Shown here: positions 19,132 through 29,999 of the stretch, piece after piece | How positions within the stretch are numbered: the stretch's first letter is position 1 | How the letters are laid out: every line of letters starts with the position of its first letter | Source: Gemmatimonadales bacterium | GTDB taxonomy: Bacteria; Gemmatimonadota; Gemmatimonadetes; Longimicrobiales; Gaopeijiaceae | Direction of reading: 5' to 3' | Length of the DNA: 64,000 bases | Assembly (NCBI GenBank): GCA_007695225.1 | Contig: REED01000145.1 | Coordinates: forward strand, 1-64,000 | Notes under the pieces: model-generated | Told to the model about the DNA's origin: nothing | The model's input: the letters and a program-made list of their open reading frames with translations, nothing else | Database searches by the model: none | Made by a program: the position numbers and the translations under genes

Positions 19132-19995
19132 TCAGACCAGCGCCTCGATCCGGGCCAGGGTCCCGGGAGCACTCCGAAGGTCCAGATTGCAGAGGTAGAC
19201 CTTCTCCACCCCCCGCTCGCGAAGGGCCCTAAGGGTCCGGGCACATACCTCCTCCGGGGCGGCCCCGGAGGAGAATTCCCGGGTGAGCGCCTCCGTCGGG
19301 ACGGGTAGGAATTCCCCCAGTCGCTCCAGGGTCCGTGGGTTGGCGCTCCGGTAGTAGAAGACCCCGAAGAGGCCCGGCATGGTCACGCCGGCCCCCTGCA
19401 CCACCTCCAGGAAGCGGTCCACCGCCGGAAGGTGATGGTGGGAAACCACCTGGGTGAGGAAGTAGTCCGCTGCGACCCCCTCATCCGTCAGGTATCCCAC
19501 CTGGGTTTCGGGATCTGCCAGGGGATTGGTCCAGACACCCAGGGGAAGCCCTGGCGTACCCTCTCGGATTTGTGCCCGGAGATCCCGGGAACGGGGGAGA
19601 CACCGGGGCGTCCCGCCCGCCTCATCTCCTCCCGTCACCGTCAGTCCCCCCATCCCGTGTCCCCGGGTGCGCCGGGCGAAGTAGGTGCAGTAGTCCAGGG
19701 AATGGCGCAGCGTCAGGAAGGGCACCACCCCCGACAGATCGGCACCTGGCCCCAGGTTGTCCACCAGGTGCCGGAGGCTCTCCTCCTCCCGCGTCCCCAC
19801 TGCGTCATCGGTGAAGAGGACGAATCGATCCTCCCGGAGGAGCCGCCGAACCGAATGCCGGAGGTCGATCCACGCCTCCACCGACGCACCCATCCCCAGC
19901 GCCGCCGGGGGTGGACGGAGCTCCACCGCCCGGATGGCCCCCGGGGAGCGGAGTGCCTGGAGGAACCGATCGGTCTGGGAAGGCCCGGGATTCAT
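19132..19995 (-). CDS. MetF-like (methylenetetrahydrofolate reductase family) protein
   Basis: A 287-aa TIM-barrel protein resembling the MTHFR fold. It has AVELRPPP at the first strand, where MetF has the catalytic Glu region, then LTVTGGDEAG, and DYFLTQVVSHHHL near residue 178, equivalent to the FAD-contact segment of MetF. It is shorter and more divergent than the MTHFR half of the neighbouring fusion, so it may act on another folate or be a regulatory paralogue. It overlaps the upstream gene by an ATGA and is the last gene of the metH operon. Confidence 0.65.
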   Translation of the reverse strand: MNPGPSQTDRFLQALRSPGAIRAVELRPPPAALGMGASVEAWIDLRHSVRRLLREDRFVLFTDDAVGTREEESLRHLVDNLGPGADLSGVVPFLTLRHSLDYCTYFARRTRGHGMGGLTVTGGDEAGGTPRCLPRSRDLRAQIREGTPGLPLGVWTNPLADPETQVGYLTDEGVAADYFLTQVVSHHHLPAVDRFLEVVQGAGVTMPGLFGVFYYRSANPRTLERLGEFLPVPTEALTREFSSGAAPEEVCARTLRALRERGVEKVYLCNLDLRSAPGTLARIEALV

Positions 19996-22015
19996 CCGGA
20001 AGGGGTGTTCCGGAGGAGGGCCCGGGCTTCCTCGATAACCCGGAGGGCCAGGTCCACACGTCCCCGGGGGGCGCTCACATGCACGCCCCGGATCCGGGGG
20101 AGGACGGCTTCCAGGGCCTCCACCGCAATCCGGACCCCTTCCGAGGCCGCCCCCTCCGGTCCGCCGGACGCTTCCGCCTCCCGCATCCGCTCCAGCGCCG
20201 CAGGGGGAAGGGACACACCCGGGACCTCATTGGCCAGGAACTCGGCGTTCCTCAGCGAGGAGAGGGGCCAGAGCCCGGCCAATATGGGGAGGTCCCCCAC
20301 CGACGGGGTGCGTTCCGCCGCTTCGTCCAGGAATGAGACGAGGGCGGTCGGGTCGAAGATGGGCTGGGTGACGGCGAACTCGGCCCCGGCCTCCACCTTC
20401 CAGTGGAAGCGGTTCTGTTCCCGTTCCCGGTCGGCGGCTCCCTGGTTCAGGACCACACCCACGACGAACCGGGTGGGTGGGTCCATGGCATGCCCCCCGG
20501 GGTCTCTCCCCCGGTTGAGGCGAGCCAGAACGTTGGTAAGACCGATGGAGTCGATGTCGAAGATGGTGGTGTGGTCCGGATAGGGACCCATGGGGGAGAG
20601 GTCGCCGCTCACCACCAGCACGTTCCGGAGGCCCGAGGCAGCCGCGCCCAGGAGGTCCGAGATCATCCCCAACATGTTCCGGTCCCGACAGGTATAGTGG
20701 GCCAGGACCTCCATCCCCGTCTCCCGGGTGACCAGGAGGGCCGCCGGGAGCGCCGCCATTCGGGAGAGTCCCCGGGGCACATCCGGGAGGGTCACCAGGT
20801 CCACCCCGGCCATGCGTACCTCCCGGGCTTCGGCCAGGAGCCCGGCGGCATTCCACCCACGTGGGGGGACCAGCTCCAGAGAGGTGACGAAGGTCCCTTC
20901 CGCCAGCTTCCGCCCCAGGGGAGAGCGCTCCCGGAGCGGGATGGGGTCCTGCATTTCGGGAATGGCAGGGGAATCCGAGCCAGGGGCAGAACGCTGAGGG
21001 GGGCCGCCTTCCCCATCGACCCCGGCCGTACCCTTCGTCCCCGTTTTCGGCCCGACCTCGGCCAGCGCCTCCGCCATCTTCCGGATGTGCTCCGGGGTGG
21101 TACCGCAGCATCCACCGACGAAACGGACCCCCGCCTCCACCATTCGCCGTGCATACCGGGCCATGTACTCCGGACTGGCCAGGTACATCTTCCGATCCCC
21201 CACGGTCCGGGGGAACCCGGCGTTGGGCTGGGCCAAAAGGGGAAGGCGGGTCACCTCCGCCATTCGCTCCACCGCCTCCAGGATCTCGGCGGGCCCCACG
21301 GAGCAGTTCACGCCCACGGCGTCGGCGCCCCATTCCTCCAGCTTCCGGGCCACCGCCTCCACGTCGGTCCCGTAGGCCGTCCGTCCGCCCTCGTCGATGG
21401 TGACCTGGGCCATCACCGGAAGGGAGGACCGGGCCTTCACCGCCCGCAAGGCCTGGCGGAGTTCCCCGGGGTCCTGGAATGTCTCCAGGAGGAACCCGTC
21501 CACCCCCCCTTCCAGCAGCCCGTCCACCTGACGGCCGAAGAGGGCCTCGGCTTCCGCCTCGGCGGTGGGACCCCATGGCTCGATGCGGATTCCCAGGGGA
21601 CCCACGGCACCCAGGACCAGGATCCCGGGGACACCGGCCGCCCGGGCAGCGGCCCGGGCTCGCTCCACCGCCGCGCGATTGATGGCCTCGGTCTGATCCT
21701 CCAGACCAAAGCTGGAGAGCTTTACCGGGTTCGCACCGAAGGTGTTGGTTTCCAGGATCCGGGCGCCGGCCTCCACGTACTCCCGGTGGATGGCCTCCAC
21801 CAGCGCCGGCTCGGTGAGGCTGAGTTCGTCGTAGCAGACGTTGAGGAAGAAGCCCCGGTCGTAGAGGAGCGTCCCCATGGCGCCGTCCATGAGGTGGACG
21901 GCGTCGTCGGCAAGGAGATCCCTCAGGGACGGGGAAGCGGCGGAGACCCCGGGCACCGAGGGCGGCGGGAGCGGCGGGGGCGTTCCCGGCGGGGGCGTGC
22001 TGCCAGGCGGGGCTC

Positions 22016-22019
<4 letters not shown>
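19992..22019 (-). CDS. Bifunctional homocysteine S-methyltransferase / MTHFR
   Basis: A 675-aa fusion of the YitJ type. Residues about 30-330 form the zinc homocysteine methyltransferase barrel, with [25 protein letters not shown], and the zinc pair in [13 protein letters not shown]. Residues about 375-670 form 5,10-methylenetetrahydrofolate reductase: [27 protein letters not shown], and [10 protein letters not shown]. It would both make 5-methyl-THF and use methyl donors to form methionine. It overlaps metH upstream and the MetF-like gene downstream by ATGA each, so all three are one translationally coupled unit. The first about 28 residues are proline-rich and probably disordered. Confidence 0.9.
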
Positions 22020-25840
<3,821 letters not shown>

Positions 25841-25881
25841 GGGAGGCAGGGCCTGGCCTTCTCTGGCACTTCCCCGACGGC

Positions 25882-25900
25882 AAAGGTCCCTGATGGGACC
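25882..25900 (-). promoter_or_regulatory. Possible expression-platform hairpin in metH leader
   Basis: Between the SAM-II-like aptamer and the metH start, GGTCCC and GGGACC form a six-base stem with the loop ATCA, followed by only TTT on the minus strand. A second small stem, GCCAC with GTGGC, shares bases with the 3' end of the aptamer and could compete with it. These could be the switching part of the leader. They are weak as terminators, and translation control remains possible. Confidence 0.35.
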
Positions 25901-25962
25901 GGGTGGGCGGCGTCGGGCGGAGGGACGAACGGGTCTCCGCCACGATGGGCACGCCGGGGAGT

Positions 25963-26016
25963 GGCTTTTTAGCGGTTCGGTTACCCGGGTCGCAATACGC
26001 CGCAAATCACCCCGAG
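25963..26016 (-). ncRNA. SAM-II-like riboswitch upstream of metH
   Basis: Read on the minus strand, the order is P1 CTCGGG (26016-26011), the loop with TGATTT and CGTATTGC, P1' CCCGGG, then TAACCGAACC and GCTAAAAAG. The six-base P1 pairs fully (one U-G). The blocks TGATTT, CGTATTGC and GCTAAAAAG are those of the SAM-II (SAM-alpha, RF00521) aptamer, and the spacings are similar. In addition, GCGG in the loop can pair with CCGC before TAAAAAG to form the pseudoknot. The element ends 122 nt before the metH ATG. Its first strand lies inside the 3' end of the upstream gene, whose TGA stop is part of the conserved TGATTT. Confidence 0.82.
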
Positions 26017-26621: not shown

Positions 26622-27461
26622 CTAGACGTAGAGCGCCCGGCTGACCTCTCCACGAAACCGGGCCACAAGGGGGTGGTCCTGCCCCAGGTGATGGAAGATC
26701 GCCACACAGGCTTCCCGCACGCGGGGGTCGGCCTTCGCCCCCTCCTCCCGGAGGATGGAGATGAGTGCCTCCAGCGCTCCCTGGAATTCCCTCTCCCGCA
26801 GGAGTTGCACCGCAGCCGCGACGGAGTGGGGAGCCTCCGTCCCATCCTCCCCCGGCGAGGGTTCTTCCTGCGAGGGGTCTTCCTGGAAGAGGCGCCCGAG
26901 GCTCCGGACCGCCTGCACCGCCTCCGGGGGGAATCCCCTGGGCTCCAGCCTCTCCGTAAGCGTCATGGCCCGTTCCGGTTCGGAGAAAACGAGAAGACGG
27001 GCCAGCCGGAACCGGAGCCCCGGATCCCCCGGGGTTCCTTCAAGGAGCGCTTCCAGCGCATTGGCCGCCGCCTCCTCCTCTCCCTTGGCGATGAGCTCCT
27101 CCACCCTGGCAAGTTCAGCCGCCCGCTCCCGGTCCCCCTCCTGCGGCAGGGCCTCGTCCAACCAGCGCTGGATCGCCGATTCGGGGAGTGCTCCCATGAA
27201 GCCATCCACCGACTCTCCATCCACAAACAGCCTCACGTCGGGGATGCCGCGGATGCCGTAGGCCGCCGCCAGATCAGGATGGGCCTCGGTATCCACCTTG
27301 GCCAGCTTCCACCGACCGTCGGCCCCGGCCGCCATACGCTCCAGGACCGGGCCCAGGATGCGACAAGGGCCACACCACTCCGCCCAGAAGTCCACCACCA
27401 CCGGGGTCTGGTGACTGGCCCGGATCACTTCCTCCTGAAAGTCCTGGACATCGAACGCCAT
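26622..27461 (-). CDS. CnoX/YbbN-like thioredoxin with TPR domain
   Basis: A 279-aa protein. Residues 1-108 form a thioredoxin domain with an intact redox pair in FWAEWCGPCRILGPVL and the cis-proline loop GIRGIPDVRLF. Residues about 125-279 form TPR-like helix pairs, as in E. coli CnoX (YbbN), a chaperedoxin that protects unfolding proteins from oxidation and hands them to GroEL. E. coli CnoX has an SxxC site, whereas this protein keeps WCGPC and so should be a real reductase, as reported for other CnoX groups. The start is the ATG at 27461. Confidence 0.85.
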   Translation of the reverse strand: MAFDVQDFQEEVIRASHQTPVVVDFWAEWCGPCRILGPVLERMAAGADGRWKLAKVDTEAHPDLAAAYGIRGIPDVRLFVDGESVDGFMGALPESAIQRWLDEALPQEGDRERAAELARVEELIAKGEEEAAANALEALLEGTPGDPGLRFRLARLLVFSEPERAMTLTERLEPRGFPPEAVQAVRSLGRLFQEDPSQEEPSPGEDGTEAPHSVAAAVQLLREREFQGALEALISILREEGAKADPRVREACVAIFHHLGQDHPLVARFRGEVSRALYV

Positions 27462-27560: not shown

Positions 27561-27589
27561 TTGACGAACCGGGATCCCCCGGGTTAGCG
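27561..27589 (+). promoter_or_regulatory. Candidate promoter of attenuated operon
   Basis: TTGACG (27561-27566) and TTAGCG (27584-27589) are separated by 17 bp. The -35 is good and the -10 is poor. If used, transcription would start at about 27596-27600, placing the leader ATG at or near the 5' end of the mRNA, so the leader peptide could be translated leaderlessly; no SD precedes that ATG. Minus-strand promoters for the thioredoxin gene should also lie in 27462-27560, where I see nothing specific. Confidence 0.4.
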
Positions 27590-27599
27590 TCGTCCCACG

Positions 27600-27725
27600 A
27601 TGAAAAATGTCAGGAAGTGCGCTCAGGTGGTACCGAGCCTCGCCCCCTCCATGTGTTGTTGCATGTGTCCGACTCTCCCCTGGGAGAGGCGGCGGGGCGC
27701 TTTTGCGCACTTGAGGGAGTCATGA
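27600..27725 (+). CDS. Cysteine-rich leader peptide, 41 aa
   Basis: A short ORF from ATG 27600 to TGA 27725. Its centre, residues 17-25, is SMCCCMCPT, encoded by ATG TGT TGT TGC ATG TGT at 27651-27668; a further Cys is at residue 7. The peptide has no signal sequence and an ordinary charged tail. An internal GTG at 27627 with AGGAAG upstream is an alternative start that still includes the Cys run. The codon cluster is placed just before a hairpin that can be exchanged with the antiterminator described below. I read it as the sensor of a cysteine (possibly also methionine) attenuator. A ribosomally made, modified peptide is a less likely alternative. Confidence 0.7.
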   Translation: MKNVRKCAQVVPSLAPSMCCCMCPTLPWERRRGAFAHLRES

Positions 27726-27791
27726 TCTAGGCCTTTTCCGGGTCCCTCCCGATGTCCCCGACCTCCTCTCCCCACGGAGAGGGGGTTTTTT
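27673..27791 (+). promoter_or_regulatory. Transcription attenuator with mutually exclusive hairpins
   Basis: There are four segments. Segment 1, CTCTCC (27673-27678), pairs with segment 2, GGAGAG (27683-27688), leaving the loop CCTG. Segment 2 extended, GGGAGAGG (27682-27689), is also perfectly complementary to segment 3, CCTCTCCC (27765-27772). Segment 3 as part of 27762-27771 pairs with segment 4 (27776-27785) in a 10-bp stem with a 4-base loop, followed by six Ts (27786-27791): a strong rho-independent terminator. A ribosome stalled at the Cys codons would cover segment 1 and free segment 2 to pair with 3, allowing read-through. With ample Cys-tRNA, 1:2 forms and 3:4 terminates. Confidence 0.8.
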
Positions 27792-27840
27792 CGTATACCC
27801 GTTCCCCTGCAGCGTCCCCCCGGCAAGGAAGGAAGAATCC

Positions 27841-28947
27841 ATGTCCGCTCCCGTCATCAACGATTCCCGCACCACCGAGCCCGACCCGACCCCCATCGGC
27901 ATCTTCTACGAGCACAACGACTGGTTCCGTCCGCTCTTCACCGAGCTGGACCGAAGGGGCATCCCCTACCGCAAACTCCCTGCAAGCGACCAGCACTTCG
28001 ACCCCTCGGAGGCCATTTCTCCCTTTTCCCTCCTCCTGAACCGGATGAGTCCCTCCGCCTACCTCCGGGGCGGAACCACGGCCATCCACTATACCTCCCA
28101 GTACCTCCGCCACCTGGAGCGGCTGGGCGTCCGGGTCATCAACGGATCTACGGCCTGGAGCCTGGAGATCTCGAAGTCGGCTCAGCTGACACTCCTGGAG
28201 GAATTGGGGCTCCCCTATCCCCGGGCTCGGGTCATCCATGACGGAGCCCACGCACCCCGGGCCGCTGCTGGACTCCGTTTCCCGGTGGTGGTGAAGCCGA
28301 ATGTGGGGGGGAGCGGAGCGGGGGTGACCCGCTTCGAGACGCCGGAGGGGCTCCAGGCGGCGGCGGAGGCGGGGACCCTGGAGCTTGGGATCGACGGGAC
28401 CGCTCTGGTGCAGGAGTTCATCCCGGCCCGGGACGGCCGGATCGTGCGGGTGGAGGTTTTGAATGGGGAGTATCTCTACGCCATCCGGATCTACACCCCC
28501 GGGGACCAGTTCAACCTCTGCCCCGCCGACGTCTGCCAGGGGACCGACGGTGCCCGCCTTGAGCGCTCCGCGTGCGCGGTGGACGCCCCGGAAAACGATC
28601 TCCGGGTGGAGGGCTACGACCCTCCGGAGAAGGTGAAGACGGCGGTGGAGACCATCACCCGGGCTGCGGGGATCGAGATCGGGGGGGTTGAATACCTCAT
28701 CGATGACCGGGACGGGCAACTCTACTACTACGACGTGAACGCCCTCTCCAATTTCGTGGCTGACGCCCCCCGCGTGGTGGGCTTCGACGCCTTCGCACGC
28801 CTGGTGGACTGGCTGGAGGCGGAGCTGGGGGCCGTTGGCGCCGGAGGCTCGGCCACCGCCGACACCACCTCCGAAGGGGCACCGGGTACCGAGGGAATGC
28901 CCCCCGGAACCGTTCCCTCTCCCACCCTGGCGGGGGAGGTGGCCTGA
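27841..28947 (+). CDS. ATP-grasp ligase, RimK-like
   Basis: A 368-aa ATP-grasp enzyme that would join a carboxylate to an amine or thiol by an acyl-phosphate. The lid and ATP site are visible in PVVVKPNVGGSGAGVTRF (near residue 145) and ALVQEFIPARDGR. The metal-binding end reads GGVEYLIDDRDGQ and YYYDVNALSNF. A CPADVC pair near residue 225 is unusual. The last about 40 residues are low complexity. The gene follows the attenuator terminator by 50 bp, and its TGA overlaps the ATG of the next gene by one base, so the two are coupled. Its substrate is not known. The context suggests use in sulfur-limited growth. Confidence 0.8.
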   Translation: MSAPVINDSRTTEPDPTPIGIFYEHNDWFRPLFTELDRRGIPYRKLPASDQHFDPSEAISPFSLLLNRMSPSAYLRGGTTAIHYTSQYLRHLERLGVRVINGSTAWSLEISKSAQLTLLEELGLPYPRARVIHDGAHAPRAAAGLRFPVVVKPNVGGSGAGVTRFETPEGLQAAAEAGTLELGIDGTALVQEFIPARDGRIVRVEVLNGEYLYAIRIYTPGDQFNLCPADVCQGTDGARLERSACAVDAPENDLRVEGYDPPEKVKTAVETITRAAGIEIGGVEYLIDDRDGQLYYYDVNALSNFVADAPRVVGFDAFARLVDWLEAELGAVGAGGSATADTTSEGAPGTEGMPPGTVPSPTLAGEVA

Positions 28948-29999
28948 TGCGCTTCGGCTACTGGCTCCCCATGTTTGGCGGTTGGCTCCGGAACGTGGAC
29001 GACGAGGGGATGGAAGCGTCCTGGGAGTACGTGAGCCGCCTGGCGCGCAGAAGCGAGGAAATCGGCTTTGACCTGACCCTCCTGGCCGAGCTCAACCTCA
29101 ATGACATCAAGGGGATGGATGCTCCCTCCCTGGACGCATGGAGCACGGCGGCGGCGCTGGCGGCGGTGACCCGGCGCCTGGAACTCATGGTGGCGGTGCG
29201 CCCCACCTTCCACCCTCCTGCCCTCCTGGCGAAACAGGTCGCCAACATCGACCGGATCAGCGGGGGGCGCCTGTCGCTGAATGTGGTCTCCTCGTGGTGG
29301 GCCACGGAGGCCCGGAAGTATGGCGTCACCTTCGACGAGCACGACCGGCGCTACGACCGCACTCGCGAATGGCTTGAGGTGGTCAGCGGGATGTGGACGG
29401 AGCCCACCTTCTCCTTCCAGGGAGAGTTCTACCAGGTGGAGGAGGCGATCCTGGAACCCAAGCCGCTGCGGCGGCCCCGCCCCACCCTCTACGCCGGTGG
29501 GGAATCCCCGGCGGGTAAGTCGCTCATCGCCGAGAAGTGTGACGCCTGGCTCACCCATGGTGGCCCCCCCGACGAGGTGGGTGGGAAGGTGGCGGAAATG
29601 CGGGAACGGAGGGCCGCATTGGACCTCCCGGCCATGGAGTACGGCGCTGCGGGCTACGCCATCGTCCGGTCCACCGAGGCCGAGGCCCTCCGGGAGGTGG
29701 AGCGGATCACCGACGTCCGCCAGTCGGCTCGAGGCTACGCGAACTACCAGGACTGGATCGGGAACACGAAGATGGACCGGAAGGTGAGCCTGGAGGACTA
29801 CTCGGTCTCCAACCGGGGACTCCGGAGTGGGCTGGTGGGAACCCCGGAACAGGTGGCGGAACAGATCCGGGCCTTCGAGGCTGCCGGCGTGGGGCTGCTC
29901 CTGCTCCAGTTCAGCCCCCAACTCGAGGAGATGGAACGCTTCGCCGAAGAGGTGATCCCCCTGGTGGATACGGCGTCCCGCCCGGCCCTCACGGTGTGA
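28947..29999 (+). CDS. LLM-class flavin-dependent monooxygenase, SfnG-like
   Basis: A 350-aa luciferase-fold barrel. The N-terminus RFGYWLPMFGGWLRNV and the blocks PALLAKQVANIDRISGGRL, NVVSSWW and EHDRRYDRTREWLEVVSGMW follow the pattern of SfnG (dimethylsulfone monooxygenase) and SsuD (alkanesulfonate monooxygenase). These use FMNH2 and O2 to cleave C-S bonds and release sulfite. A flavin reductase partner is not encoded nearby. It is translationally coupled to the ATP-grasp gene (TGATG) and lies behind the cysteine attenuator, consistent with scavenging organic sulfur. The exact sulfone or sulfonate is not determined. Confidence 0.8.
   Translation: MRFGYWLPMFGGWLRNVDDEGMEASWEYVSRLARRSEEIGFDLTLLAELNLNDIKGMDAPSLDAWSTAAALAAVTRRLELMVAVRPTFHPPALLAKQVANIDRISGGRLSLNVVSSWWATEARKYGVTFDEHDRRYDRTREWLEVVSGMWTEPTFSFQGEFYQVEEAILEPKPLRRPRPTLYAGGESPAGKSLIAEKCDAWLTHGGPPDEVGGKVAEMRERRAALDLPAMEYGAAGYAIVRSTEAEALREVERITDVRQSARGYANYQDWIGNTKMDRKVSLEDYSVSNRGLRSGLVGTPEQVAEQIRAFEAAGVGLLLLQFSPQLEEMERFAEEVIPLVDTASRPALTV

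Follow-up and report, generated by a model that had tools for sequence, protein, structure and literature searches.

The window, i.e., the whole stretch of 64,000 nucleotides that was analysed, carries on its plus strand a two-gene operon for a RimK-like ATP-grasp ligase and a luciferase-like (LLM) flavin monooxygenase, preceded by a predicted promoter and a leader ORF with a run of Cys and Met codons (Table 1). The leader sequence starts MKNVRKCAQVVPSLAPSMCCCMC and has a T-tailed hairpin downstream. The two structural genes overlap by one base. The ATP-grasp protein matches the Pfam RimK domain and scores 71.9 bits against TIGR00768 (RimK alpha-L-glutamate ligase), below the cut-off of 143.4. 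The profiles nearest to the LLM protein are SfnG and SsuD, with scores below both cut-offs, and its best NCBIfam profile is TIGR04021 (SfnG dimethylsulfone monooxygenase) at 245.3 bits against a cut-off of 382.95. The name "SfnG-like" given in the preliminary description is therefore right as to the nearest profile but loose as a label: the protein shares the Bac_luciferase family with the SfnG, SsuD, and MsuD monooxygenases and differs from SfnG in falling below the cut-off. The closest solved chain is 3rao, an LLM protein of no assigned role.

Table 1. Positions of the features in the window.
Feature	Coordinates	Strand	Details
Predicted promoter	27561..27590	+	TTGACG 27561-27566, spacer 18 nt, TAGCGT 27585-27590
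Leader ORF, 41 codons	27600..27725	+	Probably no 5' UTR, or one of a few nt
Sensor codons M C C C M C	27651..27668	+	ATG TGT TGT TGC ATG TGT
Element matched by covariance models R1/R2	27657..27796	+	Window sequence belongs to both training sets
Hairpin 1:2	27673..27688	+	CTCTCC 27673-27678 with GGAGAG 27683-27688; conserved in alignments A1/A2
Region 2, antiterminator 5' strand	27681..27701	+	Pairs with 27753-27772
Region 3, antiterminator 3' strand	27753..27772	+	Takes in the terminator 5' arm
Intrinsic terminator	27760..27791	+	Stem 27760-27787, core 27762-27785 (10 bp, one G-U), T6 27786-27791
RimK-like ATP-grasp ligase gene, regulated gene 1	27841..28947	+	PF08443
LLM flavin monooxygenase gene, regulated gene 2	28947..29999	+	PF00296

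A gap of 9 nt separates the predicted promoter from the leader ATG in the window, and no Shine-Dalgarno-like stretch is found between the predicted -10 box and this ATG. In six relatives (L007, L008, L009, L011, L012, and L015) a promoter of the form TTGAC-17/18-TAxxxT ends 5-6 nt upstream of the leader ATG, and judged from these sequences the leader ORF is therefore probably leaderless or nearly so. The divergent neighbour (26622-27461) encodes a thioredoxin with a TPR domain, so that the terminator can serve only plus-strand transcripts that start upstream of the leader. On the minus strand at 19992-26005 there are putative genes for MetH-like homocysteine methyltransferases, one of them apparently a fusion with a MetF-like part, which places the operon near methionine genes.

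Predicted Alternative Structures in the Leader Transcript

The preliminary description had reported the 41-codon leader with its sensor codons, a hairpin right after them and a 10-bp terminator with six Ts whose arm is shared with the pairing of regions 2 and 3. On re-reading, the coordinates of leader and terminator are exact, the shared arm included, and the hairpin is verified base for base. The pairing of regions 2 and 3 had been given as eight bases. These eight are indeed perfect, GGGAGAGG at 27682-27689 being the exact complement of CCTCTCCC at 27765-27772, but the length was understated as the duplex reaches 17 bp with an energy of -31.4 kcal/mol (duplex folding). The leader stop codon (27723-27725) lies past region 2 and 34 nt upstream of the terminator, and 49 nt separate the end of the terminator from the ATG of the ATP-grasp gene. 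The element matched no family among the Rfam 15 covariance models at the gathering score, and no SAM riboswitch was found in the window by the Rfam search.

Averaged over 34 loci, pairing between the terminator arm and the segment behind the Cys codons has an energy of -26.1 kcal/mol, compared with -20.35 (sd 0.54) when region 2 is shuffled; the loci compared are related and these figures are not independent trials. Swapping arms between sequence types weakens the 2:3 pairing, a test that is only partly informative between loci because close relatives have the same arm sequence. Within the closest clade no compensatory changes were found in the 2:3 helix, as the helix is nearly invariant. The nascent chain was also folded, with the RNA cut where the terminator 5' arm ends. 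In the window, sequestration of that arm was then 0.83 for a stalled ribosome, 0.50 without any ribosome, and 0.16 for a ribosome standing on the stop codon, and the corresponding medians for the 34 loci were 0.76, 0.53, and 0.36. As in classical attenuators, an antiterminator that excludes the terminator and is exposed by a stalled ribosome is found in silico, while folding of the full-length RNA at equilibrium with varied ribosome positions showed no switch in most loci, the terminator being favoured in every state. Since equilibrium folding yields the terminator regardless of stalling, antitermination would have to be kinetic.

Occurrence of the Element Before Orthologous and Other Genes

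With the ATP-grasp protein as query, whole genomes of the same order yielded 30 distinct loci, and 48 named contigs were obtained that partly coincide with these and are mostly of Gemmatimonadota, Acidobacteriota, and Bacteroidota. Almost everywhere the ATP-grasp and LLM genes are neighbours in a two-gene operon. Upstream of the orthologous pair, 29 of the 30 loci from this Gemmatimonadota order have a short Cys-rich ORF and, behind it, a T-tailed hairpin; this counts L019, where the element lies further upstream and was recovered as L121. The sole exception, L017, is without the combination. Alignment of related upstream regions, proposed in the preliminary description as a check, shows that all three features are kept: the run of Cys codons, the complementarity of regions 2 and 3, and the hairpin with its T tail. 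The same plan is found in four Acidobacteriota (L054, L057, L058, and L062), in which the arms GAGCGG/CCGCTC replace GGGAGAGG/CCTCTCCC without loss of complementarity between region 2 and the terminator arm. The leader is missing from most Acidobacteriota orthologues, and no Cys leader accompanies the ATP-grasp loci of other phyla (e.g., L068-L070). Six Bacteroidota (L048, L049, L050, L055, L056, and L064) have a SAM-I riboswitch and, after it, a short ORF that ends in 3-7 Cys codons about 250-350 nt upstream of the ATP-grasp gene, and no recognised terminator was found behind the Cys run in these six. The orthologous pair is under a SAM-II riboswitch in L010 and L013 and under SAM-I in other relatives.

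The element is not peculiar to this gene pair. Covariance model R1 was built from ten leaders of the ATP-grasp/LLM operon only, with R2 as its refinement; as R1 includes the Cys codons it is biased to Cys leaders, but it is unbiased as to the downstream gene. R1 detected two further elements in the window's own genome (E 4e-9 and 6e-8), one with the leader ACCPCCRCG upstream of an SDF-family symporter (PF00375) and one with the leader MMMCCRTMC upstream of a TonB-dependent receptor. Weak own-genome matches of R1/R2 at L087, L090, L200, and L201 turned out on inspection not to be Cys leaders, and those numbered L130 and later were left out of the counts. In relatives, Cys leaders matched by R1/R2 lie upstream of metY (O-acetylhomoserine sulfhydrylase), cysI (sulfite reductase), and cysC (APS kinase), as well as before TauE/SafE permeases, the same SDF symporter and a methionine importer. 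With matches assigned by gene, at least two Cys codons are present in the run of 28 of the 31 that belong to sulfur assimilation or transport, against 1 of the 13 before His, Leu, aromatic or Thr genes. The element described before the ATP-grasp/LLM pair is thus there, but as one of a set that other sulfur genes have as well. At L086 (G000:C21:29290-29434) of the window's own genome, a TonB-dependent receptor stands behind a Cys/Met leader and is a candidate organic-sulfur importer.

Elements of the same shape occur with other codon runs. The window's own genome has a His leader (MRSLFSVHHHANHHAPRT...) and terminator upstream of hisG (L199:98-227, in G000:C148), and elsewhere in the Gemmatimonadota there are Leu leaders before leuA (L155, L163, and L185), a Thr/Ile leader upstream of homoserine kinase (L182), and aromatic leaders upstream of DAHP synthase and prephenate dehydratase (L166 and L193). 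Met-run leaders (e.g., MMMMMMRMT and TMRMTMRMTMRMT) are found at L149, L153, L158, L161, L171, and L113, with homoserine dehydrogenase (hom) and metX behind them, except that no gene was assigned at L158; all of them are candidate methionine-sensing attenuators. With such elements in front of hisG, leuA, metX, and hom, the codons of the leader follow the pathway of the genes. For the regulon, the amino acid that is read fits the pathway that the controlled genes serve, while for the ATP-grasp/LLM operon this holds only via regulon membership and riboswitch association. A SAM-II riboswitch (RF00521) stands directly before a Cys or Met leader at L010, L013, L113, L118, L122, L123, and L126, a tandem that may sense SAM and an amino acid together. 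At L156 a leader MCMCMCCM lies upstream of a threonine-synthase-like PLP enzyme, which suggests a sulfur role for that enzyme.

Probable Attenuation and Its Rival Explanations

It is highly probable that the element is a ribosome-mediated transcription attenuator that senses charged tRNA-Cys and probably tRNA-Met too. As in the classical systems, a leader ORF with a codon run is followed by an apparent intrinsic terminator between leader ORF and gene, and the his/trp-type logic claimed for the locus is supported by conservation in relatives and by recurrence before recognised sulfur genes. When cysteine is ample, the ribosome would pass the Cys codons and region 2 and reach the stop at 27725; region 2 would then be covered or back in hairpin 1:2, hairpin 3:4 (27760-27787) would fold, and transcription would end at about 27791. 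The manner in which region 2 is kept busy after release of the ribosome is one that we infer, the stop codon lying beyond region 2. When Cys-tRNA is short, the ribosome would stall at 27654-27668 and cover region 1, region 2 would pair with region 3, the terminator would be blocked and the ATP-grasp/LLM operon transcribed. The operon would thereby be part of a sulfur-starvation regulon. The most likely task of its enzymes would be to free the sulfur of an organic sulfur compound, and the ligase would modify either the substrate or the product; such ligase-assisted oxidation in sulfur salvage is a guess from regulation and enzyme family.

The locus had been described as tuned to cysteine. The Cys run is conserved, but Met codons are enriched as well, and both amino acids together may be the signal: across 27 leaders, the ten-codon stretch up to and including the last Cys contains on average 3.9 Cys and 2.0 Met, compared with 0.2-0.4 of each per ten codons in the flanks of the same ORFs, and TGT (52) and TGC (54) occur in nearly equal numbers. 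That Met is interspersed with Cys suggests a joint Cys/Met sensor. A variant of the attenuator in which methionine is sensed as much as cysteine, both being integrated through the mixed codons, would agree with the five- to seven-fold enrichment of Met codons in the run and with the gradation among leaders, those of metX/hom being mostly pure Met, those of metY mixed and those of cysI/SDF nearly pure Cys. Equal weight is nevertheless rather doubtful, as Cys outnumbers Met two to one across the leaders of the operon and four to two in the window.

Attenuation by a stalled ribosome has to be weighed against readings in which the hairpin or the codons play another part. The Cys codons might affect how translation of the operon is initiated, or affect Rho, with the hairpin being incidental. 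Actinobacterial cys leaders are without terminators (PMC1262725), mycobacterial poly-Cys leaderless short ORFs act as attenuators (Canestrari 2020, as cited in PMC13236596), and the window's leader is probably leaderless as well. This is nonetheless unlikely here: a T-tailed GC-rich hairpin lies between leader and gene in nearly all loci, the terminator 5' arm is exactly what complements region 2, and the alternative structures do not take in the ribosome-binding region of the operon itself (about 27824-27840). It is very improbable that the nascent M/C-rich peptide is itself the sensor and stalls the ribosome, e.g., by binding copper or another metal, given that the same architecture occurs with His, Leu, Met or Phe codons before matching biosynthesis genes and that sulfur genes, not metal genes, lie downstream. 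The Cys run, decoded just before region 1, would moreover still sit in the exit tunnel, even if MCCCMC and MCMCCCMC look like metal-binding motifs and a copper-responsive upstream ORF has been reported (PMC9426467).

An ordinary terminator beside a chance Cys-rich frame, with no regulation at all, is scarcely credible. T-tailed hairpins alone do occur at the shuffle rate (3 found and 3.1 expected from shuffles in 6 kb) and the folding energy of the leader is ordinary (MFE z -1.4). A Cys cluster with a strong T-tailed hairpin after it was however found in none of 550 control windows (450 nt, non-overlapping, taken on both strands from the same genomes after masking of the target loci), and chance would also have to account for the conservation of Cys run, pairing, and terminator in 29 of 30 loci and their recurrence before other sulfur genes.

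Relation to Known Leaders and Meaning for the Gemmatimonadota

With the trp, his, and leu attenuators of the Enterobacteria the window shares a leader ORF with a run of the sensed codons, a U-tailed terminator before the structural genes and mutually exclusive 1:2, 2:3, and 3:4 pairings; it differs from them in its Cys (with Met) codons, in a stop codon beyond region 2 (unlike trp), in an ORF that is probably leaderless, and in the small operon controlled. The preliminary description took a terminator-based Cys attenuator before this gene pair to be new. Operon and phylum appear to be new, but attenuation of this kind has already been proposed for the uORFC-8-2 motif before cysS in Rhodobacterales (PMC8632094). 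That motif likewise has a uORF with tandem Cys codons, two stems, a U run, and a proposed Cys-tRNA-responsive read-through, while it belongs to the Alphaproteobacteria, precedes cysS only and has two Cys codons inside the first stem (PMC8632094). The actinobacterial and mycobacterial leaders resemble the window in being short Cys-run ORFs before sulfur genes, the mycobacterial ones leaderless too, but they have no conserved terminator hairpin and a translational or Rho mechanism has been proposed for them (PMC1262725; Canestrari 2020, as cited in PMC13236596). SAM-I and SAM-II riboswitches (RF00162 and RF00521) control sulfur and methionine genes and stand in tandem with a Cys leader in Bacteroidota and some Gemmatimonadota relatives, whereas the window's own element has no recognised aptamer. 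Leader-peptide systems were known only from Proteobacteria and Actinobacteria according to a survey of 2010, which added the Firmicutes (PMC2965389). No report of attenuators in Gemmatimonadetes, or of leaders with "methionine codons", was found in the literature searched, which covered few subscription papers. The kind is thus known, and within the searchable literature the phylum, the regulon, and the operon appear new.

A wider reading, which may as easily prove wrong as right, is that the Gemmatimonadota use one modular attenuator with swappable sensor codons in a phylum-wide sulfur regulon. Near-pure Cys leaders would serve sulfate- and cystine-type genes, Cys/Met leaders metY and the ATP-grasp/LLM operon, and Met leaders metX and hom, the leader ORFs often being leaderless and some being stacked behind SAM riboswitches. 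If the stacked arrangement is true, one leader region would integrate two amino acids and SAM. The mixed Cys/Met leaders allow a direct test of whether one leader peptide reads two amino acids. With a widely conserved two-gene operon placed in the sulfur-starvation response, the range of substrates to consider for it would narrow to organic sulfur compounds. Classical attenuation very probably operates as a mode of regulation in the phylum, with leader codons from which the pathway of the downstream genes can be predicted.
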